Below, piece by piece: positions 2,426 to 36,497 of a stretch of 36,497 nt of DNA. Numbering within the stretch: the stretch's first letter is position 1; each line of letters opens with the position of its first letter. A model generated the notes under the pieces. It saw only the letters and a list, made by a program, of their open reading frames with translations, had not been told where the DNA came from and did no database searches. A program made the position numbers and the translations under genes. Source of the DNA: Candidatus Nanopelagicales bacterium (GTDB taxonomy: Bacteria; Actinomycetota; Actinomycetes; S36-B12); the NCBI GenBank assembly GCA_030728405.1, contig JANQZS010000108.1, positions 1 to 36,497 on the forward strand. Direction: 5' to 3'.

Positions 2426-2440
2426 AAAAACACCAAAAAG

Positions 2441-4416: not shown

Positions 4417-4421
4417 GTGTC

Positions 4422-4429
4422 GTATTATT
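4422..4429 (-). promoter_or_regulatory. Candidate -10 box for a leaderless thiolase transcript
   Basis: On the minus strand the bases read AATAATAC, giving an AATAAT or TAATAC hexamer. AATAAT ends seven bases before the thiolase ATG at 4416, so transcription would start at or beside the A of the ATG. No ribosome-binding site precedes the ATG. There is no convincing -35 box. Actinobacteria commonly use leaderless mRNAs with only a TANNNT-type -10 element. Confidence 0.35.
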
Positions 4430-4481
4430 GCCGGTCGACAAGGATGCGCGTTACCCGACCTGAGCCGAGTAGGTTGGAAAC

Positions 4482-4496
4482 CTCGCGAATCACTAA
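4482..4496. promoter_or_regulatory. Candidate PaaX-type operator upstream of the SDR operon
   Basis: The sequence CTCGCGAATCACTAA, read on the minus strand, contains TGATTCGCGAG. It matches 13 of 15 positions of the E. coli PaaX operator consensus as I remember it (WWTRTGATTCGYGWT). It lies 15 bases upstream of the SDR start codon, just before the GGGAGG ribosome site, where bound repressor would block transcription. A PaaX-family gene is encoded about 8 kb away at 12274-13158. The consensus is recalled, not looked up, and an actinobacterial PaaX could recognise a different site. Confidence 0.4.
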
Positions 4497-4510
4497 CTGT
4501 GGGAGGGCAT

Positions 4511-5284: not shown

Positions 5285-5679
5285 CCGTACGCAGAGTCAA
5301 CCCGCCGCACTTAGCTCCACCGATCGGCTTCTCGCACGCAGTGGTGGCAGAGGGTTCCACCATCGTGTTGCTCGCCGGTCAAACCGCACTCAACGCAGAC
5401 AACGTGATCGTGGGCAGCACGATTGTTGAGCAGTTTGAGCAGGTCATGACAAACCTGCTCGCTGCGCTCGAGGCCGCGGGCGGCACCCCTGATCAGTTGG
5501 CCAAACTGACGATCTATTCCGTCGATCCCGTCGATTACCGGGCCAACGCACGCGATATCGGACGGATTTGGCAGCGCCTCGTCGGCAAGGACTACCCAGC
5601 CATGACACTGATCGGTGTTACGCGCCTGTGGGATGACGAAGCCCTATTGGAGATCGAGGGGACTGCGATCCTCCCGTGA
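5281..5679 (+). CDS. RidA-family (YjgF/YER057c/UK114) protein
   Basis: A 132-residue RidA-like protein with the typical small trimer-forming fold: VVLLAGQTALNADN near the N-terminus, then EQFEQVMTNLLAALEAAGG and the C-terminal GVTRLWDDEALLEIEGTAIL, where the conserved Arg is present. Family members hydrolyse reactive enamine/imine intermediates, and some act as deaminases in aromatic pathways (for example 2-aminomuconate deaminase). Its presence in a CoA-ester operon beside an SDR is reminiscent of 2-aminobenzoyl-CoA clusters, which raises the possibility of an N-containing or enol intermediate. The start ATG overlaps the SDR stop as ATGA; its stop overlaps the next gene's GTG as GTGA. Confidence 0.88.
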   Translation: MTVRRVNPPHLAPPIGFSHAVVAEGSTIVLLAGQTALNADNVIVGSTIVEQFEQVMTNLLAALEAAGGTPDQLAKLTIYSVDPVDYRANARDIGRIWQRLVGKDYPAMTLIGVTRLWDDEALLEIEGTAILP

Positions 5680-7754: not shown

Positions 7755-7756
7755 TC

Positions 7757-9310: not shown

Positions 9311-10797
9311 CCGAAACTCCAGGAGCCTTTCCCTACACGCGCGGAATCAGCGCTGATCCCGGCGTCTGGACGATGGGGCAATACGCGGGTTTCGGCACTG
9401 CTGCCGAGACCAACAAGCGATTTCGCACTCTGCTTGATCAGGGCTTGACCGGCTTCAGCGTCGCTCTTGATTTGCCCACCCAAATGGGTTTGGACTCAGA
9501 CAATCCCCTCGCACGCGGCGAAGTGGGCAAAGTCGGAGTGGCTATCGATTCCCTTGCAGACATTGAAGTTTTAATGGCGGGCATCCCGCTGGAGAAGATC
9601 AGTCAGGTGCGCACCACGGCAAACTCCATCGGTTATATCTGGGCCGCTCTATTTGAGGCTCTCGCAGTCAAGCGTGGCGTCGACCCGAACCAGTTCGGCA
9701 TGTTTATTCAGAACGACGTTCTCAAGGAGTACTTTGCCCGCGGAACGCAGATCTTCCCCGCGGCGACCGGCTTGAAACTCTCCGTCGATGTGATTGAACA
9801 CATTTCGCGGCATATCCCGCGCTGGGTTTCCCTTGCCATGAGCGGGTACCACATCCGCGAGTCTGGATCGAGTGCTGTGCAAGAGATTGCGTTCACTTTC
9901 GCCAATGCGAAGGCCTATCTTGATGAAACCATCAAGCGCGGCCTGACAGTTGACGATGTTGCGCCCACCTTGTTCACGTTCTTGTCGAGCAACATGGATT
10001 TCATGCCCGAGATTGCTAAGTTCCGCGCTGCTCGTCGAGTCTGGGCCAAGCTCATGCGCGATACCTATGGGGCGCAAGACCCCCGTTCGGAACAACTGCG
10101 GATCTTTGTATTCACCGCTGGCTCCTCGCTCACTGCGCAACAGCCATTGAACAACGTGGTCCGCACATCAATTGAGGCGATGGCTGCCGCACTCGGTGGC
10201 GTTCAAACGATGCATGTGTGTGCCTACGATGAAGCTTTAGGTGTTCCCACCGAAACCGCTGCCACTTTGGCCTTGCGCACGCAGCAGATCGTGGCATTCG
10301 AGACGGGCGTCACCACGATGGTCGATCCGCTCGGTGGCAGCGTGATTCTTGAAGCACTCACCGATGAACTCGAGCAGCGGATTTGGGAGGAACTCGACGT
10401 CATCGCTGCGCGTGGAGGGGCCCTCGAGTGCATCGAGTCCGGCTACTTTGCGACAGCGCTCGGAGATAGTGCTTACGAGTACGCGCAGTCAGTCGATTCC
10501 GGTGAGCGCCCTGTTATTGGCGTGAACACCTTTGTTACCGACCATGTTGCCTTCGACGTGTTCACGATCGATCCAGAAAGTGAGCGCTCACAGGTTTCAT
10601 CACTCGAAGGGGTTCGGGCCCGCCGGGATGAGCAGGCCGTTGCTGCCGGCTTGGCCGAGGTGAAGGCAGCTGCTGAAGCCGGAATCAACATTGTGCCGGC
10701 CTGTGTCACTGCGGTGAGTGCCTATGCAACTGTCGGTGAGATTTGCGACGTGCTCCGCGCGGTGTACGGAACCTGGACTCCTTCGGGAGCCTTTTAA
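9307..10797 (+). CDS. B12-dependent acyl-CoA mutase large subunit, atypical
   Basis: A 496-residue catalytic TIM-barrel subunit of the methylmalonyl-CoA/isobutyryl-CoA mutase family without the B12-binding domain. It keeps QYAGFGTAAETNKRF, FSVALDLPTQMGLDSD, the adenosyl/substrate-contacting SGYHIRESG (Tyr181, His182), LNNVVRT and DEALGVPTE. Two features are unusual. The N-terminal extension before PYTRG (residues 9-13) is absent. The following specificity loop is about three residues shorter than in methylmalonyl-CoA mutase, so the Tyr/Phe/Ile that discriminates known mutases is not present (ISADPGVWTMGQ). Arg145 (in FARGTQIFP) appears to match the methylmalonyl-CoA-type arginine. It probably pairs with the small subunit at 15603. 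The four-base overlap with the CoA ligase suggests the mutase acts on that ligase's product. Substrate unknown. Confidence 0.85.
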   Translation: MTETPGAFPYTRGISADPGVWTMGQYAGFGTAAETNKRFRTLLDQGLTGFSVALDLPTQMGLDSDNPLARGEVGKVGVAIDSLADIEVLMAGIPLEKISQVRTTANSIGYIWAALFEALAVKRGVDPNQFGMFIQNDVLKEYFARGTQIFPAATGLKLSVDVIEHISRHIPRWVSLAMSGYHIRESGSSAVQEIAFTFANAKAYLDETIKRGLTVDDVAPTLFTFLSSNMDFMPEIAKFRAARRVWAKLMRDTYGAQDPRSEQLRIFVFTAGSSLTAQQPLNNVVRTSIEAMAAALGGVQTMHVCAYDEALGVPTETAATLALRTQQIVAFETGVTTMVDPLGGSVILEALTDELEQRIWEELDVIAARGGALECIESGYFATALGDSAYEYAQSVDSGERPVIGVNTFVTDHVAFDVFTIDPESERSQVSSLEGVRARRDEQAVAAGLAEVKAAAEAGINIVPACVTAVSAYATVGEICDVLRAVYGTWTPSGAF

Positions 10798-23175: not shown

Positions 23176-24627
23176 GTGCATCAGGGCGTGAAACTGACTG
23201 AGCCACCCTCGGGAGCTCCTGGCTTAAGCGCGCGTGGACTCCGTGATGCACTTCGCGAAGGCCAGATCCGCGTTGCGGATGCCCTTGAGGAGTTTGTGAG
23301 CAGGGCCGCGGAGGTTCAAAAAGTCGTCAATCCGTTCACGTTCATTGATCCTGATGGAGCGCGCGAGTTGGCGCATGCGGCTCAAAAGCGGATTGATGAT
23401 GACAACCCTCGTGCACTGGAGGGTGTGCCGGTTGCGATTAAGGACCTCACTCCGATGGCTGGTCACCCGCACACAATGGGGAGTCTGGTCATGCGTGACG
23501 TTGTTGCCACCGTTACGGACCCTGCAGTTCAGCGGCTACTTGATGCTGGCGCAATACCTTTCGCTCGGACGAACACGGCGGAGTTTGGCTGCGCCACTGT
23601 GACAGACAATCTCCTGTACGGGGAGACGCTGAATCCGTGGAACACCGAATACAGCCCGGCGGGTTCATCGGGAGGGGCTGCTGCTGCCTTGGCTTCTTTC
23701 GCCACGCCGCTCGCACAAGGTTCAGATTCAGCGGGCTCGTTGCGGATGCCAGCCTCCGCCTGTGGTGTGGTCGGCATGAAGCCTTCTTATGGTGTTGTTC
23801 CTGTTGGTGCGCCCGCATACCTTGACCCTTTTGGTCACAACGGGCCGATGGCGCGGAATGTTGCTGATGTGCGTTTGATGTTTGACGTGATGGCAGGTAT
23901 TGATTCACACCAAGGTTTTGGTTATGACGTACGGTTCACGGAGACTATCCGCTCAGTGGCCGGACTTCGCTTAAGAGTGATCAAGTCCATGGATGGTCTC
24001 AGCGTTGATCGCGAAGTGGCTGCAAATTTAGAAATTGCATGCGGTGCACTGTCGAATGCGGGTGTTGAAATCGAAGAAGTTGATTTCCCGTGGGACTTTG
24101 AACGCCTTTTTCATTGTGTGAAGAACGCTTTCGCGATGACATACATGCCTTTGGCTCGCTCAGCTCGCGATAGTGGGATCGACGTCACTGACCTCACAAG
24201 TGCCTTTATCGACGACGTCATGCCGTTCACCGCAGATGGCATGCAGGCAGTTCGGGCGCAGTCAGAGATGGCCGCCCTTCATGCGGCATTAGCAGTGCAT
24301 CTGGCCCAGTCAGACTTTCTCATGCTGCCCACTCTCGCGATGCCTGCCCCTGTGGCGCACGATCACTTCATCGAGCGCGGACCGCTTGTCAATGGTGTTG
24401 AGCATGAAGATAGATGGATCGTGGCATTCACTGTCCCTTTTAACCTGATGAGCGCCTGTCCAGCGATCACTATTCCGTCGGGGATATCAACAGCAGGTAT
24501 TCCAACGGGAATTCAACTTGTTGGTCAACCATATGAGGATCGTCGATTACTAGATACCGCTGAACTTGCTGAATCAATAATCCCGGGAATTCCACGGAAT
24601 TTTGGCAACGTAAAAGTTGGAGTGTGA
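23176..24627 (+). CDS. Amidase-signature family hydrolase
   Basis: A 483-residue amidase with the complete Ser-cisSer-Lys triad: Lys89 in PVAIKDL, cis-Ser164 in PAGSSGGAAAALA and nucleophile Ser188 in QGSDSAGSLRMPAS (usually GSD-GGS). Amidase-signature enzymes hydrolyse C-N bonds, including amides released when N-heterocyclic rings open. It starts at GTG 23176 with GGAGAGG upstream and is the first gene of a five-gene operon; one base separates it from the 2Fe-2S gene. The context suggests it cuts an amide formed after hydroxylation and ring opening. GatA is unlikely because GatB/GatC are absent and the context is catabolic. Confidence 0.9.
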   Translation: MHQGVKLTEPPSGAPGLSARGLRDALREGQIRVADALEEFVSRAAEVQKVVNPFTFIDPDGARELAHAAQKRIDDDNPRALEGVPVAIKDLTPMAGHPHTMGSLVMRDVVATVTDPAVQRLLDAGAIPFARTNTAEFGCATVTDNLLYGETLNPWNTEYSPAGSSGGAAAALASFATPLAQGSDSAGSLRMPASACGVVGMKPSYGVVPVGAPAYLDPFGHNGPMARNVADVRLMFDVMAGIDSHQGFGYDVRFTETIRSVAGLRLRVIKSMDGLSVDREVAANLEIACGALSNAGVEIEEVDFPWDFERLFHCVKNAFAMTYMPLARSARDSGIDVTDLTSAFIDDVMPFTADGMQAVRAQSEMAALHAALAVHLAQSDFLMLPTLAMPAPVAHDHFIERGPLVNGVEHEDRWIVAFTVPFNLMSACPAITIPSGISTAGIPTGIQLVGQPYEDRRLLDTAELAESIIPGIPRNFGNVKVGV

Positions 24628-24628
24628 A

Positions 24629-25096
24629 ATGAAAATTAACGGCACCCATGATGATCCGGTTGGCATTCGGGCCGATACACGTCTCTTGGACTACTTGCGT
24701 GATCAGCAGGGTCTGCGTGGCACCAAGGAAGCGTGCGGCCGCGGCGAATGTGGTGCTTGCACGGTACTCATCGATGGTCGCCCCGTGCTCTCTTGCATCA
24801 CGTTAGCGGTGCGTGTCGATGGCGATGTTGAGACCATTGAAGGAGTCACTGCCGAATCGGCTGAATTACGCCGACAATTCGCCGAACACGGAGCCTTCCA
24901 ATGTGGCTTTTGTACTCCGGGGCAGATCGTGAGAGGTGTGGCTCTTCTCCGGCAGGGCCTACCGGCGGATGACAACGCGCTGCGAGCCGCAATCAGTGGC
25001 AATGTGTGTCGCTGCACCGGCTATTCGGGAATAGTGTCCGCTTTACGGGCCGCGGAGGAGAACATCGCGATGGCTGACTCTGGAGAAAATTCATGA
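24629..25096 (+). CDS. 2Fe-2S iron-sulfur subunit of a molybdenum hydroxylase
   Basis: A 155-residue protein with both cluster-binding domains of the xanthine-oxidase family small subunit. The plant-ferredoxin-type cluster uses Cys36, Cys41, Cys44 and Cys56 (ACGRGECGACTVLIDGRPVLSC). The helical-domain cluster uses Cys92, Cys95, Cys127 and Cys129 (QCGFCTPGQ, CRCTGY). It passes electrons from the molybdenum centre to FAD. The ATG at 24629 has GGAG upstream; its stop overlaps the start of the fused large/FAD subunit (ATGA), so the two should form one complex. Confidence 0.94.
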   Translation: MKINGTHDDPVGIRADTRLLDYLRDQQGLRGTKEACGRGECGACTVLIDGRPVLSCITLAVRVDGDVETIEGVTAESAELRRQFAEHGAFQCGFCTPGQIVRGVALLRQGLPADDNALRAAISGNVCRCTGYSGIVSALRAAEENIAMADSGENS

Positions 25097-28000
25097 CCAC
25101 GATTTCGGAGACTCCGCGCCGAGTTTCGGGTGTCGTTGGGCAAGCGGTTCCAAATGTGGAGAGAGAGGCGAAGACCTCCGGATCATCGATCTATGCCGGA
25201 GATGTAGAACTCCCAGGGTTGCTTCATGCCCGAATCCTGCGAAGCACCCACCCGCACGCGCGAATTCGGAATATTGACCTTTCGCGCCTTGCTGGCATGC
25301 CAGGTGTTATCGGTGTCGTGACGGCACAGGATCTTCCTGATCGCATGTACATCCATCACGGTGGTCCTCTTTCGGATCGGGGAGTACTTGCCTCTGATGT
25401 GGTTCGCTTTGTTGGTGAGGAGATCGTTGGGGTAGCTGCGGAAACACCAGCAGCTGCTGATCAGGCCCTCTCATGCATCGTTGTGGACTACGAAGTGCTT
25501 CCAAGTGCGGTATCCGTATCGGAAGCACTTGGACCTGAGGCACCACTCATTCACTCAGGTGGCAATGTTCCTGTGCGTCATGCCCGACGTTGGGGAAGCG
25601 TGCCGGCCGAGCAAGAGGCTGCTGTGACGGTGTCGGGCACCTACCTGTTTGGTCGGCAGACCCACGCGTGTATGGAGACAAACACAGTGACCGCTTCGTG
25701 GTCGTCTGCCACGGGAATGCTCGACGTGTGGATTAGCACACAATCGCCGTATCTCGTGCGAAAAGAACTTGCTCACGTCCTCGATTTGGATGTACATCAC
25801 ATTCGTGTTCACGAGGTGGCTGTTGGTGGAGGTTTTGGATCTAAGTCAAAGATTTCCGAGTACGAGGCAATTGCTTGCGCGTTATCGATGAAGACTGGGC
25901 GACCCGTTCGGCTCGCCCTCACAAGGGAAGAAGAATTCACTACCGCGAAGTGTCGCCATAGCTTCGAGATCAATTTGGAAACATCGGCAACTGCAGAAGG
26001 AATGCTTGTTCGCCGCGATGCCTCGATGACAGTTGATAATGGCGCCTACAACCATTCAGGGCCTTCGGTAATGGCGTATGCAGGTCAAGTATTGGGCAGT
26101 CTTTACCGGATCCCTGCAGTCAATGTCGACGCAGAGTTGGTGTACACGAATAAGCAACCAGGTGGCCAATTCCGTGGCTATGGCGGACCGCAGGCAATTT
26201 TTGCGCTCGAATCGCAAATGGATGAAGTTGCTGACCAACTTGGGATAGATCGGGTTGATCTTCGAATCCTCAATGCCAACTTGGCTGGCGACACCACACT
26301 CACTGGCTGGCGTATTGATTCGGCGCGTCTTGTCGAGTGTCTTGAGACCGCTCGTAGCGCCATCGGTTGGCAGGGCAGGGGAGCAAAGGCACCCGAGGGG
26401 CGCGGTATCGGATTTGCTGCCTCGATCCATGTGAGTGGTGCAAACATTTACGAAGGCGCTGACAAGAGCAGTGCGACCGTCGAGGTTGACACCGATGGGC
26501 GGGTGCTTTTGCGATTCGGTGCGGCAGATGCTGGCACCTGGCAAAACACAGTGGTTGCGCAATTCGTTGCGCACGAATTGGGAATAGAGCCAGATGATGT
26601 TCAGTTAATCACGATGGAAACCGACGCAACCCCAACGGAACTGGGTTCGTGGTCGAGTAGGGGAACCTATATGAGTGGCCATTCGGTAGGCCAGACCGCG
26701 CGTGATGTTGCAGAAGAGCTTCGCTTGCATGGTGCCGCAATGTTGGAGTCGCCCGTTGATGAAGTATGGCTCCACGCAGGTGTGGTGACGAACGGTGTCA
26801 CTTCAGTTGGTTTCGGTGTGGTCGTTCAGGAGCGGTTGGGCGGAAGTCTCGTCCGGACGCGTGAAATCACATTGACCAACGTGGATCAAGTGAATCGTGA
26901 GACGGGTATTTCTAATCTTTCCGGAGCGTATTCCTTTGCCGTTCATGCTGTTGAGGTAAGCGTTGACGAAGGCACTGGGAAGGTCAAGGTCGAGAGGTAT
27001 GTAGCGGTTCACGACTCAGGTCAAATAGTGAATCCCATAGCGGCTCGCAGTCAGGTGATTGGTGGCGTGGCAATGGGTATTGGCTACGCCTTGAGTGAAG
27101 AACTCTTGTACGAGGGTGGCATGTCGATGACACGCTCATATATCCAATATCCACTTCCAAGAGCTGCAGATCTGCCAGAAATCGAAGTAATCTTTGTTGA
27201 AGGCGATGACCCGAATGGCCCATACGGGGCGAAGGCTATTGGCGAAATTGTTCTCATTCCACCGGGTGCAGCTATTGCTAATGCCGTTGCTGATGCGACG
27301 GGTGTACGCATGCGCGAACTTCCCTTGACACCGGATCGGGTGCTGGCTGCTTTGCATCAGCGAGATCGCAAGCCGAAGCGGAATTACCGAATTGGCCAAC
27401 GTCCGTCGCGCTGGCAGATTGCTGTGATGAGAGCTTGGTATCCACGAGGCCTTCATCAGTTCCTCCACAAATTTGGTACGAGATGGGGTCGCCCTGCGCA
27501 GCGTGCCGAACTTCTTGCAGTTGAGACTCCTGTCGATGAGGCCGCCGCTTCCGCCGCACTCGCGCGCCCGGGTGCGAGGGTTATTGCTGGGGGAACCGAT
27601 CTCCTGCCTGCGCGCAGGCAAGGCTTGGTTCAACCATCTGTGTTAGTTGACATCATGACCATTCCCACTGTTGGCCGCATAGAACAGAGTGGATCAGATG
27701 TCGCTGTCGGCGCTGCGGTAACCCTTGCTGATCTGGCGATTTGGTCCCAAGATCAACTGTCTGTCCTACACGAAGCAATCACAGCAATCGCAACTGAACA
27801 GATTCGCTTAATGGCTACGGTTGGGGGCAACCTCTGTCAGCAGAATCGTTGCTGGTTCCTCCGAAATGATTTCATGTGTTACAAGAGAGGTGGAGTTTCC
27901 TGCCCCTGTTACGCAGTAACGGGCGATCACCGTTACTACCACTCCGTGATAGATAGTCACCGCTGCCAATCGGTAACGCCGTCTGATCTCTCGACAGTTT

Positions 28001-28482
28001 TGAGCGCACTCGATGCGACTGTCGAGATTTCTGGCGGAGATCGCAAGCGATCAATGAAGGTTGTTGATTTTTACACCGGTCCGGGTGAAGTACGCCTTGG
28101 GCGTGGAGAGTATCTACGTTCAGTTGTCATCGAGACCGACAAGTTTTCAGGTCACGATTACCGCAAGCTCAACCGTGGCCATGGGGATTTCGCCATGATC
28201 TCGGCGGCCGTATCCGTCGCAACAGACATGAATGGAACTGTCACTGACGCTCGAGTGATACTCGGAGCGATGGCCCCAGTCCCGTACCGCGTGCATGATG
28301 CTGAGCGGCTCATGGTGGGTCGCACAGTCAACGCGATAGATGTGGCAGCAGCAGCTGAGGCATGGTGTCGGCGGGCACATCCGCTTGAGCGAAACGAGTG
28401 GAAAGTTCAAGCGGGTGCTGAACTTCTACAACGCAGTATTGCGGCAGCACTGGCCCGAACCCAATCTGGAGGGAAACCGTGA
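25093..28482 (+). CDS. Fused molybdopterin-binding and FAD-binding subunits of a xanthine-oxidase-family hydroxylase
   Basis: An 1129-residue fusion. Residues about 10-755 are the molybdenum-cofactor subunit (VGGGFGSKSKISEYEA, GGQFRGYGGPQA at 357-368, catalytic Glu718 in AKAIGEIVLIP). After a basic linker of about 50 residues (RDRKPKRNYRIGQRPSRW), residues about 815-1129 form the FAD subunit (VIAGGTDLLPARRQG, ATVGGNLCQQ). The FAD domain has an inserted loop with Cys915, 920, 929, 937, 939 and 958. It resembles the [4Fe-4S]-binding loops of PaoB and HcrB (RC-WF..., C-YKRGG..., YAVTGDHRYYH..., C-QSV). These subunits are normally separate polypeptides in the order FAD-FeS-Mo, so both the fusion and its order are unusual. 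The frame is open across the linker, so this is not a missed stop. Substrate unknown; an N-heterocycle, an aromatic CoA ester or an aldehyde is possible. Confidence 0.9.
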   Translation: MTTISETPRRVSGVVGQAVPNVEREAKTSGSSIYAGDVELPGLLHARILRSTHPHARIRNIDLSRLAGMPGVIGVVTAQDLPDRMYIHHGGPLSDRGVLASDVVRFVGEEIVGVAAETPAAADQALSCIVVDYEVLPSAVSVSEALGPEAPLIHSGGNVPVRHARRWGSVPAEQEAAVTVSGTYLFGRQTHACMETNTVTASWSSATGMLDVWISTQSPYLVRKELAHVLDLDVHHIRVHEVAVGGGFGSKSKISEYEAIACALSMKTGRPVRLALTREEEFTTAKCRHSFEINLETSATAEGMLVRRDASMTVDNGAYNHSGPSVMAYAGQVLGSLYRIPAVNVDAELVYTNKQPGGQFRGYGGPQAIFALESQMDEVADQLGIDRVDLRILNANLAGDTTLTGWRIDSARLVECLETARSAIGWQGRGAKAPEGRGIGFAASIHVSGANIYEGADKSSATVEVDTDGRVLLRFGAADAGTWQNTVVAQFVAHELGIEPDDVQLITMETDATPTELGSWSSRGTYMSGHSVGQTARDVAEELRLHGAAMLESPVDEVWLHAGVVTNGVTSVGFGVVVQERLGGSLVRTREITLTNVDQVNRETGISNLSGAYSFAVHAVEVSVDEGTGKVKVERYVAVHDSGQIVNPIAARSQVIGGVAMGIGYALSEELLYEGGMSMTRSYIQYPLPRAADLPEIEVIFVEGDDPNGPYGAKAIGEIVLIPPGAAIANAVADATGVRMRELPLTPDRVLAALHQRDRKPKRNYRIGQRPSRWQIAVMRAWYPRGLHQFLHKFGTRWGRPAQRAELLAVETPVDEAAASAALARPGARVIAGGTDLLPARRQGLVQPSVLVDIMTIPTVGRIEQSGSDVAVGAAVTLADLAIWSQDQLSVLHEAITAIATEQIRLMATVGGNLCQQNRCWFLRNDFMCYKRGGVSCPCYAVTGDHRYYHSVIDSHRCQSVTPSDLSTVLSALDATVEISGGDRKRSMKVVDFYTGPGEVRLGRGEYLRSVVIETDKFSGHDYRKLNRGHGDFAMISAAVSVATDMNGTVTDARVILGAMAPVPYRVHDAERLMVGRTVNAIDVAAAAEAWCRRAHPLERNEWKVQAGAELLQRSIAAALARTQSGGKP

Positions 28483-29414
28483 TCATCGATGTGCATACCC
28501 ACCTCTACCCACTGAGTTGGGCACCTCTTGGCCGCATGCCTGAAGACATGTTTGATGTTGACGGCTTGATCGCACGCCTTGATGCGGGTGGGGTAGATGT
28601 CGCTATCGTCTCAGATCCGCACATTTGGTTTGGTGATCTTGATGTCTGCGACATCGCGCAGGTGCGTGAATACAACGATTTTGTTGCCGAGCTCCGTGAG
28701 CGCACAAATGGTCGTCTCATCGGACTGGGAACTGTAGTTCCTTGGCGCGGAATTGAGCACATTGCAGAGGCGCGCCGAGCAATATCTGAACTAGGTCTGG
28801 TGGGCCTGGCTATTCCGACGAGTGATCAAGGTCGCTACCTGGACACCGTGCCTGAGGAATTCTGGAACACGGTCACTGAATTAGATGTGCCAGTTTTCAT
28901 TCATCCCGCCGGCACAGTTATCGGCCAAGAGTTGATGGGGGAATATCGGCTAGGCGAGGTGTGCGGGAGACCACTAGATACGACAGTAACTCTTGCGCGC
29001 GCCATCTTGACCGGAGTGCTCGAGCGACATGAGAATCTCAAACTGTTGTGTTCCCATGCAGGTGGAGCTATCTGCATGATTGCCGATCGGTTGGACTTTG
29101 GACACGAGCTGCGTGATTACGCGGCACTCGGTCCGTGGGGTGAGGTTCGCCTTACCCGACCCCCGAAAGATTATGTGCGTCGGTTGTGGCTCGACACGGT
29201 CGTATACGGCTCTGATCCGCTCAGACTCGCACTAGCGACAGTGGGCGCAGAGAGGCTGTGTTTTGGCAGCGACGGTCCTCCTGTTCCTTTCCCACTCTCT
29301 CGTCATCTGGGGATGCTGGATGAACTTGGACTACCCGAAGATGCACAGAGCGCAGTGCTGGGCAACAATGCTCAGACCTTGTTTCGACTCAATGGGGAGA
29401 GGCCTGCTTCATGA
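28479..29414 (+). CDS. Amidohydrolase-2 family protein (ACMSD-like decarboxylase/hydrolase)
   Basis: A 311-residue TIM-barrel metal enzyme of the amidohydrolase-related family that includes 2-amino-3-carboxymuconate semialdehyde decarboxylase and gamma-resorcylate decarboxylase. Metal-site residues are visible: His6 and His8 (DVHTHLYP), His142 (FIHPAGT), His193 (CSHAGG) and Asp265 (FGSDGPP). Members decarboxylate aromatic or ring-opened acids or hydrolyse lactones. The GTG at 28479 overlaps the stop of the fused subunit (GTGA), and its stop overlaps the aldehyde dehydrogenase ATG. The decarboxylase-then-dehydrogenase order resembles the lower kynurenine/2-nitrobenzoate route, but no ring-cleaving dioxygenase is seen. 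Confidence 0.88.
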   Translation: MIIDVHTHLYPLSWAPLGRMPEDMFDVDGLIARLDAGGVDVAIVSDPHIWFGDLDVCDIAQVREYNDFVAELRERTNGRLIGLGTVVPWRGIEHIAEARRAISELGLVGLAIPTSDQGRYLDTVPEEFWNTVTELDVPVFIHPAGTVIGQELMGEYRLGEVCGRPLDTTVTLARAILTGVLERHENLKLLCSHAGGAICMIADRLDFGHELRDYAALGPWGEVRLTRPPKDYVRRLWLDTVVYGSDPLRLALATVGAERLCFGSDGPPVPFPLSRHLGMLDELGLPEDAQSAVLGNNAQTLFRLNGERPAS

Positions 29415-30979
29415 GCGAACTACGCCAAAGCTTGCTCGAGACATTGGGCTCATTTGAGGCCAGTGCCGCAGTGCCTGTTGGCTTAGATCGAATGGAATCC
29501 CGGCTCATGATCGGCGGGGAGTTACGACCATCTTCAGATGGCGCGTTACTCATCAACACGAACCCGGTGACAGGAGAGCAAGTAGGGGAGGTCTCCGATG
29601 CGTCTCCCGATGATGCCCTCGCTGCCGTGGCTGGTGCGCGGAAAGCATTGACCGGCACCACATGGTCAACTGACTCGAATTTTCGGTCTGCATGTCTTCG
29701 CCAACTTTGCTCTGCCCTGGAGCGCAATGCTGCTGACTTTCGTACTGCTCTCGTGTCCGAAATTGGTTGCCCGGCTCGAATGACCTTCGCCGATCAGTTT
29801 GACTATGCGGTAGCCAAACTCGCCTTTTATGCAGACCTTCTTGACACATACGAGTTCAGCGATTCACTCGATGACCTCCCAACCTACGGAGCAGTTCTCC
29901 GGAGGCAGCTGTGGCGTGAACCTGTCGGTCTCGTCGCCGCGATCACGCCATGGAATCTGCCTATAGAGCTCATGCTGGCGAAGGTCGGTGGTGCATTAGC
30001 TGGTGGGAACGCCATCATCCTCAAACCGTCGCCACTGGCCCCATGGTGTGCAACCATTCTCGGCCGCGTGATTGCCGAGGAAACTGATATTCCAGCTGGC
30101 ATCGTCGCAGTTCTCCCTTCGGCGAGACTAGAGACGGCACAGGCTCTTACCTCCTCTCCTGACGTGGATGCCATAGCGTTCACGGGTTCAACCCACACGG
30201 GTGAGGCTGTCATGCGATCGGCGAGCTCAACGTTAACAAAGGTGTGCCTCGAACTGGGTGGAAAATCGCCTTCGATCTTTCTCCCCGATGCAGATTTGGC
30301 CTTTGTACTTCCCTTTGCTGCAGGGATGGCGATGTTTAACGCTGGGCAAAGTTGCATCATGCCAAGTCGCATGTTGGTCCCGATTGAACAATTCGACCGG
30401 TGTTTGGATCTTGCAGTTGAGGGCATGGCTGCGGTGAATTGGGGGGATCCCTGGTCGCCGGAAACGTTTATGGGTCCGCTGATCAGTGCGGATCGCCGAA
30501 ACGAAGTGGTAGGAGTTGTCCGTCGATCTGCTGAACAAGGGGCGCGGATCGTGTGTGGAGGAAATGCAATCCCTGGACCGGGTTTCTTCATGGAGCCGAC
30601 GCTGATAGCCGATCTTGACGGATCCAGTGAGGCTGCTCAGCAGGAAATTTTTGGCCCGGTTGTCGTAATGACGCCTTATACATCCGTCGAGCATGCGATT
30701 GAGTTGGCCAATGACACCGAATTTGGCCTTGCTGCCTACGTGTGGGGTGCCTCGGCTGAGGATGCTGCTCAGGTGGGCAGCCGTATTCGAGCAGGCATGG
30801 TGGGCATCAATGGTGGACAATTCACCTCAGCGGATATGCCCTTTGGTGGCATGCGAAGAAGTGGGATAGGGCGAGAGTGGGGGGTTGCCGGTATGGAGGA
30901 ATTCCTCGAGACCAGGACCATGGCCACGCGTATTCCAGTGGTCTCCGAAGACTCCCCGGTGTTTCTGGCGGGTAAATAA
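29411..30979 (+). CDS. NAD(P)-dependent aldehyde dehydrogenase
   Basis: A 522-residue ALDH superfamily enzyme, with Glu281 in LELGGKSP and nucleophilic Cys315 in NAGQSCIMPSR separated by the usual 34 residues; ITPWNLPIELMLAK and FTGSTHTGEAVM form the cofactor site. It carries an extra N-terminal segment of about 30 residues before the normal MIGGELRPSSD start. It would oxidise an aldehyde intermediate, for example a semialdehyde produced by the preceding decarboxylase. The ATG overlaps the preceding stop by four bases. It is last in the amidase operon; an 88-bp gap with a promoter follows. Confidence 0.95.
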   Translation: MSELRQSLLETLGSFEASAAVPVGLDRMESRLMIGGELRPSSDGALLINTNPVTGEQVGEVSDASPDDALAAVAGARKALTGTTWSTDSNFRSACLRQLCSALERNAADFRTALVSEIGCPARMTFADQFDYAVAKLAFYADLLDTYEFSDSLDDLPTYGAVLRRQLWREPVGLVAAITPWNLPIELMLAKVGGALAGGNAIILKPSPLAPWCATILGRVIAEETDIPAGIVAVLPSARLETAQALTSSPDVDAIAFTGSTHTGEAVMRSASSTLTKVCLELGGKSPSIFLPDADLAFVLPFAAGMAMFNAGQSCIMPSRMLVPIEQFDRCLDLAVEGMAAVNWGDPWSPETFMGPLISADRRNEVVGVVRRSAEQGARIVCGGNAIPGPGFFMEPTLIADLDGSSEAAQQEIFGPVVVMTPYTSVEHAIELANDTEFGLAAYVWGASAEDAAQVGSRIRAGMVGINGGQFTSADMPFGGMRRSGIGREWGVAGMEEFLETRTMATRIPVVSEDSPVFLAGK

Positions 30980-31070
30980 ATGACAACAAATTCCCAATTC
31001 GCTTGACTATCTGTCATACAGAAGACAATGTACTGATCACTCAGCTGCAGTAGGTAATTAGGGAGACGTG
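30980..31070 (+). promoter_or_regulatory. Promoter of the second Mo-hydroxylase/ABC transporter operon with palindromic operator
   Basis: TTGACT (31003-31008) is followed 18 bp later by AATGTA (31027-31032), a plausible promoter. Between them lies TCTGTCATACAGA (31010-31022), a perfect inverted repeat with five-base arms (TCTGT/ACAGA) around CAT. It is the reverse complement of the motif at 23120-23132 with two mismatches. GGGAG at 31061-31065 is the ribosome site for the ATG at 31071. A repressor bound here would cover the RNA polymerase spacer. Confidence 0.65.
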
Positions 31071-31931
31071 ATGAGACCAGGGGCCTTCAGGTACCTCGCG
31101 GCGACCTCCTTAGATGAAGTTCTCGAGAATCTTTCCGAACTCGGCGATGAAGTGACCCTCTTGGCCGGTGGGCAGAGCCTTATCCCCCTCATGAATCTCC
31201 GACTAGCCCGACCGGAAGTTTTAGTCGATCTCAACCGCGTTCCGGGTCTGGCGGGAATCGACCTTGTCGACGGTGAACTGAGAATCGGCGCGATGGTTCG
31301 GGCCGCTGACGTCGCCAGTGATCCCATAGTCACAGGTTCGCTACCCGCATTGGCCCGAGCTGCAGCTTTTATTGGTCACCCGCAAATCCGAAATCGGACG
31401 ACCATCGGTGGCAACATCTCTCACGCAGATCCATCTTCTGAATTGCCGGGCGTTCTGGCGGCATTCGAGGGGAGTGTCACCTTGAAATCCCTTCGTGGCG
31501 AAAGACGTGTCGGGTGGGATGAATTCATCGTGTCCACGTTCACGAATTCGCGTGAAGCGGATGAATTAGTCGTAGATGTGCGGTTTCCGGTGCGACCGGG
31601 ATGGTCCTTCGCCTACGACGAGGTGGCCCCGCGTCATGGTGACTATCCCCTTGCCGGAATTTGTGCCGGAGTGCAGATCAGCGACGGCATCGTGCGTGGA
31701 ATGAGACTGGTAGCTGTCGGTGTATCGGACCGCCCGGTCGTGTTGACCGGCGTTGCGCAATTTGCCCTTGGCCGAGAGCTCGACGCCGCCACGATTAAAG
31801 AACTTGGCAAAGTTGGCCGTGAAGAGGTATCCGCAAACGATGACGCTCATGCTTCTTCGGAGTACCGCAAGTGGCTCGTTGGCACGCTGATCAACCGAAT
31901 TTTAGGAAACCTCGTATTGGAGCAACGATGA
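31071..31931 (+). CDS. FAD-binding subunit of a molybdenum hydroxylase (CoxM-like)
   Basis: A 286-residue medium subunit with the two FAD pyrophosphate motifs TLLAGGQSLIPLMNLRLARP (about 32-51) and TIGGNISHADPSSELP (about 108-123). It lacks the extra cysteine loop seen in the FAD domain of the neighbouring fused enzyme, so it is of the ordinary type. It passes electrons from the 2Fe-2S subunit to an acceptor. The ATG at 31071 has GGGAG five bases upstream; a GTG one codon earlier is too close to that site. Its stop overlaps the 2Fe-2S gene (ATGA). First gene of the second operon in the standard M-S-L order. Confidence 0.93.
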   Translation: MRPGAFRYLAATSLDEVLENLSELGDEVTLLAGGQSLIPLMNLRLARPEVLVDLNRVPGLAGIDLVDGELRIGAMVRAADVASDPIVTGSLPALARAAAFIGHPQIRNRTTIGGNISHADPSSELPGVLAAFEGSVTLKSLRGERRVGWDEFIVSTFTNSREADELVVDVRFPVRPGWSFAYDEVAPRHGDYPLAGICAGVQISDGIVRGMRLVAVGVSDRPVVLTGVAQFALGRELDAATIKELGKVGREEVSANDDAHASSEYRKWLVGTLINRILGNLVLEQR

Positions 31932-32413
31932 ATACGCCCCAAACGGTGAAGACAATTCAACTCCTAGTGAATGGTGCTCAGATTGAGCGTGAGGTTGAGG
32001 TGCGCACGCTGCTGTCAACATTCTTAAGGGACGACTTGGGGTTAACCGGAACACACGTGGCATGTGAGCACGGCGTCTGTGGCTCGTGCACGATCCTCGT
32101 CGATGGTCGAGCGGTCCGGTCCTGCCTGCTCTTGGCAGTCCAAACTGATGGCACCAGCGTTGAGACAGTTGAAGGGCTAGGGAGTCTTGGTGATCTCAGC
32201 CCGCTTCAAGAGGCTATGTGGCGTGAACATGGATTGCAGTGCGGCTTCTGCACACCCGGAATTCTTATGTCGATCGAAGGCGAAGCGCGTTCTGGTTCAT
32301 CTGCAGAGGAAATTTGTGACGAAGTTCTTTCGGGCCATGTCTGTAGGTGCACCGGTTACCAAAACATCCGTACGGCGATTCATGCCTACTTTGCAACGAG
32401 GCATGGGTCATGA
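31928..32413 (+). CDS. 2Fe-2S subunit of a molybdenum hydroxylase (CoxS-like)
   Basis: A 161-residue small subunit. Cluster ligands are Cys46, Cys51, Cys54 and Cys66 (ACEHGVCGSCTILVDGRAVRSC) for the ferredoxin-type cluster, and Cys105, Cys108, Cys139 and Cys141 (QCGFCTPG, CRCTGY) for the helical domain. It bridges the molybdenum and FAD subunits encoded on either side. Both junctions are ATGA overlaps, which supports a stoichiometric complex. Confidence 0.95.
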   Translation: MNTPQTVKTIQLLVNGAQIEREVEVRTLLSTFLRDDLGLTGTHVACEHGVCGSCTILVDGRAVRSCLLLAVQTDGTSVETVEGLGSLGDLSPLQEAMWREHGLQCGFCTPGILMSIEGEARSGSSAEEICDEVLSGHVCRCTGYQNIRTAIHAYFATRHGS

Positions 32414-34761
32414 CTACGTCAATTGACGCCCAACGTCCGAGTCTTGTTGGGTCAAGCGTCCGACGAGTCAATGACCCCAGGTTGCTAACGGGTGCTGGTC
32501 GTTTTGTGGACGATATTTCACTGCCTGGAATGTTGCATGCGTTTATCCTCCGAAGCACGGTCGCCCACGGCAGGTTAATCAGTTTTGAACCTGGTGATTC
32601 ACCGGCTGACCTCATTTTGGGACCGGACGAAGTAGGTGCCGCTACCGAGCCGCTCCCGTTCGTCTGGATTGCCCCTGACCAACAGCACCTTCACCTGCCC
32701 ATGGGTGACCGAACTGTGCGGTATGTGGGCCAGCCGCTGGGGATCGTTGTTGCCGGTTCGAGGGCCCAGGCTGAAGATGCGGCTGAATCAATCGAAATGA
32801 CCATCGACCAGTTTCCTGGAGTGGCCGATTCGCTGGCCGCTCTCGAGGCAGGTGCACCTGTGCTCTATCCAGAACACGGATCAAACCTAGCTGTGGATTT
32901 CAGTATTGGGGATGAACCTGATGTCCTAGAAGCGGCAATGGCTGCAGCCCCACTCATCGTGAGTCGACGGTTGAGAATTCCGCGAATCGCACCGAGCCCT
33001 ATGGAAACCCGGGGGGTTTTGGCTGATTGGAATACTGGAACAGAAACTCTCACTGTGTGGATGTCGACTCAAACTCCACACCATGTTCGTGACCAGTTAG
33101 CCCTGGTTTTGCGGCTCAAGGTTGATCAGGTCCGTGTCATATCTAGTGATGTCGGAGGCGGATTTGGCGCCAAAGAGCACCTCTATCCTGACGAAGTCAT
33201 GGCGTGTCTGGCCGCCATCCGTTTGGGTGTGCCGGTCAAATGGGTAGAAGATCGAAATGAGCATTTCATAGCGACATGCCACGCGCGTGACGCCGTTCAT
33301 GATGCCCGCCTTGCAATGACTGAAGACGGAATCTTCCTCGCGATCCACACCAAGGTTACGGGAAATCTGGGCGCTCATTTTTCCAATGTTGGTTCCGGTC
33401 CGTTCAGAGTCTCTGGCCTCATGCTCCCAGGTCCTTACCGCGTAGCTAATGCGGGAGCGAGGATTTCGGCTGTCTTCACGAACACCACACCGACGGGTGC
33501 CTATCGAGGCTTTGGCATGCAAGAGGCGGCCTGGGTCAGGGAGCGACTCGTCGATGAAGCCGCCCGGGAACTGGGCGTTGATCCCTTAGAGCTTCGACTT
33601 CGCAATGTGATCACCTCAGATGAGCTCCCTCATCTGACCCCGACGTTCCAAGAATATGACTCTGGCGACTATGGCCGAAGCCTCACGATGGTTCGTGACC
33701 GAGTTCAGGCGTACACCCCCATCGTCGACACAAACCCGCGGGTCAGGCGAGGCATAGGTTTCGCTACCCATGTGGAGTTCACCGGTCTCGGACCAAGCGT
33801 TATGCAGGAGATTGTCGGTTTTCGTCTGGGCGGATATGAGACGGCAATCGTTCGGATGGAGCCGGATGGAAGCGTTTTTGTCTCATCTGGGGTCATGGGG
33901 ATGGGCCAAGGAATCGAAACGACACTCGGCCAGTTAGCCGCGGATTGTCTCGGTGTTGACATGGACAGGGTGAGTGTCCATCTGGGCGACACTGCCCAGG
34001 CGCCCTACTCTGCTGCGGGGTCCATTGCCAGCCGTTCGATGACAGTCGGAGGAGGGGCAGTTGTAACGGCAGCCACGACCCTTCGTGAAAAAATCTTGCG
34101 GATTGCTGCGCACCGATTAGAGGCCAGTGTTCAGGATCTCGTCATCACCGAAGGTCGAGTGCGCATAAAAGGTGATCCATCGGTGGGCATAAGTCTGGAG
34201 GAATTGGCCGAGTACTCCTGGCTGGGCTGGAAATTGCCGGCAGGCGAGACACCTGATCTCGAAGTCAAATTTGTTCATGATCCTTCGAACATCAGCTATC
34301 CGTACGCGACCCATGCGGCAGCGGTGGCTGTTGATCTTGATACAGGTCAGATCAAAATCGAGCGGTACTGGATTGCGCACGACAGCGGAGTTGTTGTAAA
34401 CCCGCAAATTGTCGACGGGCAAATTGCGGGAGGTGTTGCTCAAGGGCTGGGGATTGCGCTCTTTGAGAAGGTGCTTTATGAAGAAAACGGCCAGCCAAAC
34501 AGTACGACGTTTCTTGACTATCTCCTCCCACTCGCAAGCGATGTGCCGGATTTGGTGATGGATCATTTCGAAACTCCGGCTCCGCACATTCCTGGTGGCA
34601 TGAAGGGTGTCGGAGAGGGAGGGACCATCGTTGCTCCTGTCGCGATCGGGAACGCGGTCGCCGCTGCAGTTCCAGAGATCGCCGGAATGTTGCTCGAAAC
34701 CCCGCTATCACCGGGTCGGTTATGGGAACTCCTCCGTAAGGGAGGGCTGTTCGATGACTAG
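32410..34761 (+). CDS. Molybdopterin-binding large subunit of a xanthine-oxidase-family hydroxylase
   Basis: A 783-residue large subunit: LVGSSVRRVNDPRLLTGAGRFVDD at the N-terminus, DVGGGFGAKEHLYPDE, TGAYRGFGMQEA (Gly363-Arg366), GMGQGIETTLGQ and the catalytic Glu736 in GMKGVGEGGTI. The active-site loop is GAYRGFG rather than the Cys-containing AYxCSFR of true CO dehydrogenase, so despite CoxL-like similarity this is a hydroxylase of another substrate, probably a heteroaromatic ring or aldehyde. It overlaps the ABC ATPase gene by eight bases, linking substrate uptake and hydroxylation in one transcript. Confidence 0.94.
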   Translation: MTTSIDAQRPSLVGSSVRRVNDPRLLTGAGRFVDDISLPGMLHAFILRSTVAHGRLISFEPGDSPADLILGPDEVGAATEPLPFVWIAPDQQHLHLPMGDRTVRYVGQPLGIVVAGSRAQAEDAAESIEMTIDQFPGVADSLAALEAGAPVLYPEHGSNLAVDFSIGDEPDVLEAAMAAAPLIVSRRLRIPRIAPSPMETRGVLADWNTGTETLTVWMSTQTPHHVRDQLALVLRLKVDQVRVISSDVGGGFGAKEHLYPDEVMACLAAIRLGVPVKWVEDRNEHFIATCHARDAVHDARLAMTEDGIFLAIHTKVTGNLGAHFSNVGSGPFRVSGLMLPGPYRVANAGARISAVFTNTTPTGAYRGFGMQEAAWVRERLVDEAARELGVDPLELRLRNVITSDELPHLTPTFQEYDSGDYGRSLTMVRDRVQAYTPIVDTNPRVRRGIGFATHVEFTGLGPSVMQEIVGFRLGGYETAIVRMEPDGSVFVSSGVMGMGQGIETTLGQLAADCLGVDMDRVSVHLGDTAQAPYSAAGSIASRSMTVGGGAVVTAATTLREKILRIAAHRLEASVQDLVITEGRVRIKGDPSVGISLEELAEYSWLGWKLPAGETPDLEVKFVHDPSNISYPYATHAAAVAVDLDTGQIKIERYWIAHDSGVVVNPQIVDGQIAGGVAQGLGIALFEKVLYEENGQPNSTTFLDYLLPLASDVPDLVMDHFETPAPHIPGGMKGVGEGGTIVAPVAIGNAVAAAVPEIAGMLLETPLSPGRLWELLRKGGLFDD

Positions 34762-36289
34762 TACTGCGGCGTTATCTGCTGAGCAGGTGACGAAGGCCTT
34801 TGGTGATGCGCTCGCTTTGAAGGCAGTGGATTTCACATGCAAGGCTGGCGAAGTACACGCGCTCTTGGGTGAAAATGGTGCAGGTAAAAGCACTTTGGTG
34901 AAAATTCTCACCGGTGCGATGGAACCTGATTCGGGGAAAATAGTCGTCAACGGTAAGAGCCACCACTTCCGAAGTCCGTTGGAGGCGCAAGTAGCTGGCA
35001 TAGGCGTCGTTTACCAAGATTTTCAGCTCTTTCCGCGGTTAACGGTCGCAGAAAACATCTGTGCTGCATCTGTCGGCGACGTCTCCCGCGGCGGTTTTTT
35101 ATCGCGCCGTCGCATGAATGCCAAGGCTGCCGGAATTCTTGCAAACTTCGGTATTGAGGTCGATCCTCAACGCGAAGTGCGCTCTCTCGATGCGGCCGAG
35201 CGAAAACTGGTTGAAATTTCCCGAGCGCTCCAAACCGATCCGGAATATTTGTTCCTTGATGAGCCAACGGCAGCGCTTGAACCCAAAGAAACACATCGCC
35301 TTTTGGCAATGATCGATCGCCTCCGGACTCATGGCAAGGGGATTATTCTTGTCACCCATCGGCTGCAGGAGATCAGCGAAGTAGCGGATCGGGCTACTGC
35401 GCTCCGCGATGGAGAATATGCCGGAACCTTGGACCGTTCCCAGTTCTCCCGGGAGGCACTTTCAGAGCTCGTTGTGGGCAGATCTGTTGAAGAGCATCGA
35501 GGCCCAAGCCATGCTCCAGGTGAAGTGCGCATGCACCTGAGCGGACTAACTCTGCGAGACGATTCACCTGAGATTGACATCTCTGTGCGTGAGCGAGAGT
35601 TGGTGGCCGTAGTGGGCTTAATCGGCTCCGGTGTCCCGAGCATCATGAAAGTTGCAGGTGGTGCAGTCGCGACGCCCAAGGGAGCATCAATTCTTCTCGA
35701 TGGCGCAGAAATTGAATTTCGCAGTCCTGCTGATGCCCAAAAGAGGGGTATCGGCTTTGTCAGTGATGACCGGAAAGCCCAAGGGATTGTGCCCCTGCGA
35801 TCCGCGGCAGAAAACATTGCGCTGCCGTCCCTCAAACGTTTTGGTGGGCCATTCGTGCACCGTAATGCATTTCGGAGCGCGGCACTTGGCTGTCAACAGA
35901 CCTTTGATATCCGGTGGACTTCTCCAGATCAGCCAGTCGGTTCACTTTCGGGTGGAAATCAGCAAAAAGTAGTTTTGAGTCGCTGGCAAGTCCGCGAGTC
36001 GACCTTCCTGGTAATTCAGGAGCCATCCCAGGGTGTTGACATCGGTGCTCGCCTTCAAATTCACGATTACCTTGTGGATTATGCAAAGTCCGGTGGGTCA
36101 GTGTTTTTCTCAAGCTCTGACCTTGATGAGGTGAGAGATATTGCCCATCGCATCTATGTCGTTCACGCTGGCGAAATCGTGGCCGAGTTCGTCAACAACA
36201 GTGAAAATCCTGTAACCCGAAGCCAACTTGCGCAAGCTATGGCGGCCATGATCGATCGTGACGAGAAGCAGGGAGTCTCCAATGACTGA
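34754..36289 (+). CDS. ABC transporter ATP-binding protein, RbsA/MglA type (double ATPase)
   Basis: A 511-residue protein with two ATPase halves. The first has a full Walker A (GENGAGKST, 39-47), a degenerate signature (SLDAAERKLVEIS) and Walker B with FLDEPTAAL. The second has the degenerate Walker A typical of the family (VVGLIGSGVPS), a good signature (SLSGGNQQKVVLSR) and VIQEPSQGVDIGAR. This layout is the carbohydrate-uptake-2 type, which imports sugars but also nucleosides and related compounds. The ATG at 34754 has GGGAGGG eight bases upstream and overlaps the hydroxylase gene by eight bases. The permease follows with another eight-base overlap. A nucleobase-like or heteroaromatic cargo is inferred from context only. 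Confidence 0.95.
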   Translation: MTSTAALSAEQVTKAFGDALALKAVDFTCKAGEVHALLGENGAGKSTLVKILTGAMEPDSGKIVVNGKSHHFRSPLEAQVAGIGVVYQDFQLFPRLTVAENICAASVGDVSRGGFLSRRRMNAKAAGILANFGIEVDPQREVRSLDAAERKLVEISRALQTDPEYLFLDEPTAALEPKETHRLLAMIDRLRTHGKGIILVTHRLQEISEVADRATALRDGEYAGTLDRSQFSREALSELVVGRSVEEHRGPSHAPGEVRMHLSGLTLRDDSPEIDISVRERELVAVVGLIGSGVPSIMKVAGGAVATPKGASILLDGAEIEFRSPADAQKRGIGFVSDDRKAQGIVPLRSAAENIALPSLKRFGGPFVHRNAFRSAALGCQQTFDIRWTSPDQPVGSLSGGNQQKVVLSRWQVRESTFLVIQEPSQGVDIGARLQIHDYLVDYAKSGGSVFFSSSDLDEVRDIAHRIYVVHAGEIVAEFVNNSENPVTRSQLAQAMAAMIDRDEKQGVSND

Positions 36290-36497
36290 AACATCTACGG
36301 TTATCGCAACAGATGCCAGGGCTCGCCGGCGAAAGCCGCGGATCTCGTTTGATGCAGCTTTTGTGCCAGCGATCATCATCATCTTGTTGGTCATCTTGTC
36401 CGTAGCCTCGCCGGTGTTTCTTAGCTCACGCAACCTTGCCCAAATCTTGCTTCAAATCTCAACCCTAGGCATCGCCGCGGTCGGTGCAACATTGGTG
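36282..36497 (+). CDS. ABC transporter permease, RbsC type, 3' end outside window
   Basis: The first 72 codons of a membrane permease. A basic N-terminal cytoplasmic stretch (DARARRRKPRISF) is followed by a hydrophobic helix (VPAIIIILLVILSVASPVF) and the LSSRNLAQILLQISTLGIAAVGATLV segment typical of RbsC-type permeases. It starts at ATG 36282, overlapping the ATPase gene by eight bases. A substrate-binding protein gene, expected for this importer, is not in the window and may lie just downstream. Confidence 0.9.
   Translation, partial: MTETSTVIATDARARRRKPRISFDAAFVPAIIIILLVILSVASPVFLSSRNLAQILLQISTLGIAAVGATLV

Follow-up and report, generated by a model that had tools for sequence, protein, structure and literature searches.

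Two different molybdenum (Mo) hydroxylases encoded side by side, next to an importer, raise the question of which compound they take part in breaking down. We found such an arrangement at the end of a 36,497-nucleotide stretch of DNA from Candidatus Nanopelagicales bacterium (assembly GCA_030728405.1, contig JANQZS010000108.1, positions 1 to 36,497; hereafter the window). Ring-cleavage genes further along the contig, synteny, and the insertion site place these genes in a larger predicted catabolic island. Catabolism of an imported N-heteroaromatic compound is well supported as its putative function. The reading that we favor, with confidence slightly above even, is that the island would import and fully degrade an N-heteroaromatic that has a carbocyclic aromatic ring as well, or gives rise to one; its substrate class, step order, transport direction, and regulation are inferred.

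The window holds the first half of a larger island

The source assembly, from a lake-type actinobacterium, comprises 2.14 Mb in 122 contigs with ~93% completeness. Its contig C108 (JANQZS010000108.1) is 60,033 bp long; the window is the first part and the contig continues past 36497. An earlier note, made from the letters of the window alone, had listed genes from an amidase through RbsA and RbsC, and we recovered every one of them where the note had placed it, with strong Pfam matches. The starts were refined to the ATGs at 31928 (second iron-sulfur subunit), 32410 (Mo subunit), and 34754 (RbsA). Two adjacent operons had been proposed: there are indeed two gene sets, but since neighboring genes overlap by 4–11 bp within each set and 88 bp part the sets, the genes may form either a single transcription unit or two.

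It is a 10-N scaffold gap within rbsC (contig 36498–36507) that ends the window, so the end coordinate of 36497 is an artefact of assembly. The join across this gap is credible because RbsA, RbsC, and RbsB lie contiguously, at 76–88% identity, in loci L032 and L064. Contig coordinates, which continue those of the window, give a gene block of ~31 kb (23.2–54.0 kb), of which the feature in the window is the first half (Table 1). Below, G000 denotes the source genome, and the block of the related genome G056 comprises loci L032 and L039. The importer is of RbsABC type: the two-domain ATPase (76% identical counterpart in L032) and the Peripla_BP_4 binding protein were recognized by Pfam, whereas the RbsC permease was assigned by reading and by synteny, being 85% identical to a protein at the equivalent place in L032.

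No ring-cleaving oxygenase had been seen in the window, and the earlier note allowed that ring opening might be hydrolytic or encoded downstream. Reading past 36497 revealed Rieske and extradiol-type genes, and a scheme without them is incomplete. The Rieske alpha subunit carries a CxH...CxxH motif and is nearest to the Rhodococcus naphthalene dioxygenase (300 bits) and phthalate 3,4-dioxygenase (272 bits). In the two-domain VOC2 protein, H144, H200, and E251 correspond, by motif and spacing alone, to the His-His-Glu triad of type I extradiol dioxygenases. The proposal of an imported N-heteroaromatic is upheld, but its narrowing to an acid or nucleobase-like compound was too specific, because naphthalene/phthalate-type and extradiol dioxygenases imply a carbocyclic ring, which nucleobases lack.

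Both molybdenum hydroxylases fall outside the CODH, purine, and aldehyde oxidase references

Both Mo enzymes, namely the Mo-FAD fusion (Mo hydroxylase 1) and Mo hydroxylase 2 with its separate subunits, show the features of the xanthine oxidase family: two MoCo-binding domains, an FAD domain, and two 2Fe-2S motifs. The catalytic Glu near the C-terminus of the Mo subunit is kept in both (GAKAIGEIV in Mo-FAD, GMKGVGEGG in hydroxylase 2). The AYXCSFR motif of carbon monoxide dehydrogenase (CODH) is missing, with QFRGYGGP and AYRGFGMQ, respectively, in its stead. Neither enzyme reached any NCBIfam equivalog cut-off.

The top PDB match of the Mo-FAD fusion was the alpha subunit of 4-hydroxybenzoyl-CoA reductase (HBCR; 389 bits). 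The fusion resembles HBCR and PaoABC in this alignment and in a Cys-rich insert in its FAD part, which aligned with HBCR beta (1rm6_B) and PaoB and therefore suggests an additional 4Fe-4S centre. It differs from them in carrying Mo and FAD domains in one chain, in scoring about half the cut-off of the HBCR family model (TIGR03194, 538 bits against 994.55), and in its position in a phylogenetic tree. The references of this tree were sequences from the PDB alignments and from Escherichia coli, and some of its deep branches are weak. In it, the Mo-FAD enzymes formed a clade (99/98) with fused alphaproteobacterial homologues, apart from HBCR, XdhA, and PaoC.

The Mo subunit of hydroxylase 2 matched CoxL (8uem, 484 bits) and quinoline 2-oxidoreductase (1t3q, 467 bits) in the PDB. 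Its tree position was in a clade (100/100) with a plasmid-encoded hydroxylase of Rhodococcus pyridinivorans YF3; this clade lies in the CoxL/quinoline/hydroxypseudooxynicotine group, outside CoxL itself. The two hydroxylases are hence different enzymes, as had been proposed, and both large subunits fall outside the purine, CODH, and E. coli aldehyde oxidase references. Neither is predicted to be a CODH, a xanthine dehydrogenase, or a characterized aldehyde oxidase. Elsewhere in the source genome, on contigs C23 and C59 (L004 and L006), are two close CoxL-type paralogues, which suggests that the genome has true CO dehydrogenases separate from the island.

A GME-superfamily hydrolase is a core part of the island

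The guanidine-modifying (GME) superfamily is best known from arginine. A hydrolase of this superfamily, encoded just downstream of the window, is a core part of the island that the earlier enzyme scheme lacked. Its top PDB match was the 2-nitroimidazole nitrohydrolase NnhA (4.6e-38), at 31.9% identity. NnhA, from Mycobacterium sp. JS330, attacks the imidazole C2 and gives resistance to 2-nitroimidazole (PMC11659421). The island enzyme shares the Glu-His-Cys triad as well as D262 and N311; that is, it keeps all of E197, H260, D262, N311, and C357, residues whose loss abolishes NnhA activity or that form the proposed catalytic base (PMC11659421). All nine further pocket positions differ, however (F146, W149, C201, Y217, P261, I263, F306, C352, and K356), with substitutions that include F146S, W149A, and Y217C. 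The small residues at these last three positions suggest a roomier pocket. The differences are uniform among five aligned island enzymes, F306 excepted. Because the catalytic residues are kept while the pocket is uniformly different, the hydrolase appears to have a specificity of its own that is common to the islands.

On a plasmid of Streptomyces sp. NBC_01727 (L058 14962–22282), a gene annotated by RefSeq as nnhA is followed by an SCP2-domain gene and then by FAD, 2Fe-2S, and Mo subunit genes. This Mo hydroxylase possibly performs the next step of 2-nitroimidazole breakdown, the oxidation of imidazol-2-one, and the adjacency is an independent hint that both activities can cooperate. The Streptomyces cluster differs from the island in having no Rieske, extradiol, or importer genes. 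NnhA proper had no match in 395 genomes of the class, so a general NnhA–Mo hydroxylase linkage depends on this one plasmid. GME relatives on plasmids of Shinella and Kozakia belong to transporter/peptidase clusters that contain no Mo hydroxylase. We did not use a GME relative of Thermomicrobium, as the large subunit of a Mo hydroxylase ~3 kb away was too loose an association.

The block is rare, conserved, and inserted at a fixed site

A search of other actinobacterial genomes, as the earlier note had advised, showed that the gene set recurs in four further genomes of the family (G056, G130, G006, and G017), is thus common to a few related genera, and is complete in one of these genomes. In G056, the entire block apart from an NMT1 importer is present with its gene order kept; most proteins are 53–94% identical and one small protein is 43% identical. 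G130 has the block centre at 76–95% identity on a contig that begins inside the Mo-FAD gene (81%). Two modules can be told apart: module A comprises RbsABC, Mo hydroxylase 2, the GME hydrolase, and short-chain dehydrogenases (SDRs), and module B comprises the amidase, Mo-FAD enzyme, amidohydrolase, aldehyde dehydrogenase, Rieske, and extradiol genes. G006 and G017 contain both, in reversed order in G006. Outside the family, a smaller core consisting of an RbsB-like protein, FAD and iron-sulfur subunits, the Mo subunit (56%), and the GME hydrolase (74%) occupies one contig of G435, with its own neighbors.

Of 166 genomes of the order, 5 carry the GME gene; of 396 other genomes sampled from the phylum, 3 do so at a looser threshold (one at 74% identity). 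Among 99 relatives, the four GME-carrying genomes also have a Mo-FAD gene with 56% identity or more, and the remaining relatives all lack one as close. In G000 and G056, which represent two genera, the block is inserted between purH and a DMT transporter gene; these two genes lie within a few hundred bases of each other in six relatives that have no block. The junction marks a drop in GC content from 59.5 to 55%. The DMT gene of G000 shares 66% identity with its counterpart in G056 but only 35% with the one in a relative from its own genus. Taken together, the shared site, the likeness of the DMT genes, and the drop in GC make horizontal transfer the simplest reading, and the block was probably acquired in this way. 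Homologues of the amidase (71–82% identical) are the first gene of the block in L032 and L033. The latter locus is on a contig labelled Bifidobacterium breve, with first genes 82–85% identical, and this label is probably wrong.

Known systems share parts of the island

The island gene set was not described in the open literature that we searched (subscription papers lay outside this search), in agreement with the earlier note, nor did the literature on carbendazim and 2-aminobenzimidazole yield a described GME or Mo hydroxylase gene set. The predicted pathway is new and its kinds of enzyme are known. The closest known pathway in logic, with different starting enzymes, is that of the lum operon of Nocardioides simplex, whose 25 genes encode a reconstituted route of lumichrome catabolism (PMC12746152). 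It employs hydrolases on the pyrimidine ring, the xanthine-oxidase-like LumJ, the Rieske system LumABCD, the extradiol dioxygenase LumE, a hydratase, and an aldolase, as well as LumU, a self-sufficient three-domain P450 of 81 kDa (PMC12746152). Like lum, the island combines Mo hydroxylase, Rieske alpha/beta, extradiol dioxygenase, hydrolase, and aldolase genes in one cluster. Unlike lum, it encodes an RbsABC importer, a GME hydrolase, and two Mo hydroxylases whose subunits are separate. The self-sufficient P450 of lum has no counterpart on the contig, and none to its thiamine-dependent decarboxylase was seen in the contig proteins that were scanned or read.

The plasmid of R. pyridinivorans YF3 (L087) shares with the island a FAD-FeS-Mo hydroxylase (large subunit 48% identical), an adjoining Rieske alpha/beta pair (38–40%), and a C-N hydrolase; no GME hydrolase, Rbs importer, or Mo-FAD enzyme was found in that cluster. 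Strain YF3 converts quinoline to 2-hydroxyquinoline (PMC7193041), and since the gene is not named there, the tie to the plasmid hydroxylase is ours. A megaplasmid of Rhodococcus ruber MSA14 (L079) encodes relatives of the cyclase (73%), C-N hydrolase (46%), CMD-like protein (41%), quinone oxidoreductase (37%), and GntR protein (39%). It differs in having single-component Rieske genes with VanB-type reductases, and GME and Rbs genes were not found in this cluster. A related lactam or ureide may be the substrate of the MSA14 set (L079 13295–17609).

Proposed pathway and alternatives

In the pathway that we propose, RbsABC would import the substrate, and the GME hydrolase, with its Cys nucleophile, would strip a substituent or open a guanidine/amidine-type carbon, a step modelled on the attack of NnhA at the imidazole C2 with a different pocket. 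Mo hydroxylase 2, which resembles quinoline 2-oxidoreductase, and the Mo-FAD enzyme would put oxygen on ring carbons adjoining nitrogen. The amidase, cyclase-family enzyme, and C-N hydrolase could then cut the resulting lactam and urea bonds, while the Rieske alpha/beta pair, an SDR, and the VOC extradiol-type dioxygenase would dihydroxylate and then cleave the carbocycle. Finally, the DapA-family aldolase, the aldehyde dehydrogenase, and the ACMSD-like decarboxylase would trim the product on its way to central metabolism. The probable regulator of the island is a divergent gene of the GntR family. As to the substrate, a fused arene with a cyclic guanidine, amidine, or 2-amino-azole (similar to 2-aminobenzimidazole or 2-aminoquinazoline) is a tentative candidate, in which case the GME hydrolase would act as ring deaminase or opener ahead of the two Mo hydroxylases and the Rieske/extradiol finish.

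Some observations tell against an import-to-cleavage route of this kind. Three of its kinds of enzyme (Mo hydroxylase, Rieske oxygenase, and GME hydrolase) have many substrates apiece, and no gene of the block was recognized as encoding a ferredoxin or reductase dedicated to the Rieske pair. Moreover, since the G435 contig shows only Mo hydroxylase 2, the GME hydrolase, and the RbsB-like protein, the block may combine modules instead of forming one linear pathway. The two successive hydroxylations of the earlier note may, but need not, take place on one ring, since the two hydroxylases belong to modules whose order varies (G006) and the G435 contig shows just the second enzyme. A rival reading has two side-by-side pathways, with module A serving an imported azole or guanidine and module B another aromatic. 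The occurrence of module A alone on the G435 contig, the fused Mo-FAD homologues without module A in alphaproteobacterial loci L034–L037, and the 88-bp gap are all in line with such a division. We nevertheless regard it as unlikely, given that the modules co-occur in 5/5 family genomes with the GME gene (G130 being cut inside the Mo-FAD gene), stay adjacent in G006 despite the reversed order, and occupy as a whole block one insertion site in G000 and G056.

A substrate as simple as a 2-substituted imidazole, e.g., 2-nitroimidazole (azomycin) or 2-aminoimidazole, is improbable. The GME hydrolase would convert it to imidazol-2-one and a Mo hydroxylase to hydantoin, with hydrolases to finish, as might be expected from NnhA being the nearest characterized relative with the same catalytic residues, from its Mo hydroxylase neighbor in Streptomyces, and from the C-N hydrolase and amidase of the block. 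Yet the identity to NnhA is ~32%, the rest of the pocket differs at every position compared, and breakdown of an imidazole would have no need of Rieske, extradiol, and aldolase genes. Slightly more doubtful still is a variant of riboflavin or lumichrome (quinoxaline) catabolism. It would fit the logic shared with lum, and variants of that pathway are expected (PMC12746152), but C108 has no p450 match, self-sufficient or otherwise, and the four p450 matches of the ~93% complete assembly lie elsewhere in frames of 403–467 aa. No thiamine-dependent pair resembling LumK/L turned up in the contig proteins that were scanned or read. LumJ, as one chain of 140 kDa, resembles neither island hydroxylase, and a GME enzyme has no role in lum. 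Finally, it is very improbable that these are genes of CO, purine, or aldehyde oxidation beside unrelated transporters. NCBIfam models for CODH, glyceraldehyde dehydrogenase, and XdhA do score hundreds of bits, but far under their curated cut-offs (e.g., 535 of 950 and 538 of 995); the active-site Cys motif of CODH is missing, and both proteins lie outside CoxL, XdhA, and PaoC in the tree.

If the route to full degradation of an N-heteroaromatic is real, it would be a complete one from import to ring cleavage in uncultured actinobacteria. It would extend the lum logic of hydrolysis, Mo hydroxylation, Rieske oxygenation, and extradiol cleavage to another substrate and give a function to an uncharacterized GME branch near NnhA. 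Because the block is conserved and its insertion site fixed, expression of a few of the enzymes would allow the hypothesis to be tested.

Gene content and neighboring genes

Table 1. Genes of the island and its surroundings on contig C108; single numbers give the position of a gene.
Feature	Coordinates	Strand	Evidence
Amidase-signature hydrolase, 483 aa	23176..24627	+	Pfam Amidase 4e-79; Lys and GSSGG/GSDSAGS Ser motifs
Mo hydroxylase 1, 2Fe-2S subunit	24617..25096	+	Fer2_2 1e-24; both 2Fe-2S Cys motifs
Mo hydroxylase 1, Mo-FAD fusion, 1129 aa	25093..28482	+	MoCoBD_1/2, FAD_binding_5, CO_deh_flav_C in single frame
ACMSD-like Amidohydro_2 enzyme	28479..29414	+	Amidohydro_2 6e-31; HxH and further His/Asp motifs
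Aldehyde dehydrogenase	29411..30979	+	Pfam Aldedh 3e-128
Mo hydroxylase 2, FAD subunit	31068..31931	+	FAD_binding_5 3e-44
Mo hydroxylase 2, 2Fe-2S subunit	31928..32413	+	Fer2_2 3e-24; both 2Fe-2S Cys motifs; 4-bp overlap
Mo hydroxylase 2, Mo subunit	32410..34761	+	MoCoBD_1/2 3e-75/6e-77
RbsA-type two-domain ABC ATPase	34754..36289	+	ABC_tran 3e-43, two stretches
rbsC permease, 5' end	36258..36497	+	Cut by window end; runs to contig 37274
RbsB binding protein	37336-38397		Peripla_BP_4 (Pfam)
GME-superfamily hydrolase	38526-39566
Two SDRs	up to 41109
NMT1/THI5-type ABC importer	41123-43850	opposite to preceding genes
VOC1, SDR3, GntR, CMD-like protein	43958-46577	-	CMD-like by reading, without Pfam match
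Rieske alpha and beta	46570-48551
158-aa protein	between Rieske beta and DapA-like gene		No recognized family
DapA-like (aldolase-family) protein	49248
OCD	50285
Cyclase	51278
C-N hydrolase	52062
VOC2, two-domain VOC protein	53021-53938
Quinone oxidoreductase	54157
DMT-like transporter	54966
Amino-acid permease	56210 (with next, 56210-59622)
Copper amine oxidase	57694

The top PDB match of the ACMSD-like enzyme was 2-amino-3-carboxymuconate-6-semialdehyde decarboxylase (8yt2, 88 bits), and it is a probable decarboxylase or lactonase. The aldehyde dehydrogenase had TIGR04284 as its top NCBIfam model (511 bits, under the cut-off of 775). Two sets of genes were considered as core parts and rejected. 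The NMT1/THI5-type importer (41.1–43.9 kb) is missing from the G056 block (L039) and is interpreted as a local addition in this genome. The amino-acid permease and copper amine oxidase (56.2–59.6 kb) lie beyond the DMT gene and are not on that side in G056, which has folD and an aldo-keto reductase there instead.

On plasmids of Corynebacterium occultum and Roseomonas mucosa (L081 8969–11011 and L082 5487–9035), an OCD-family gene paired with a DapA-family gene again lies close to genes for VOC proteins and aldehyde dehydrogenases. As a clue, these plasmid relatives showed only that the pair recurs near aromatic-cleavage genes. Toward the start of the window (866–10797), gene families assigned by reading alone include an FAD oxidoreductase, enoyl-CoA hydratase, thiolase, SDR, RidA, ADP-forming acyl-CoA synthetase, AMP ligase, and a protein similar to the large subunit of acyl-CoA mutases; this region looks like a separate acyl-CoA catabolic cluster.

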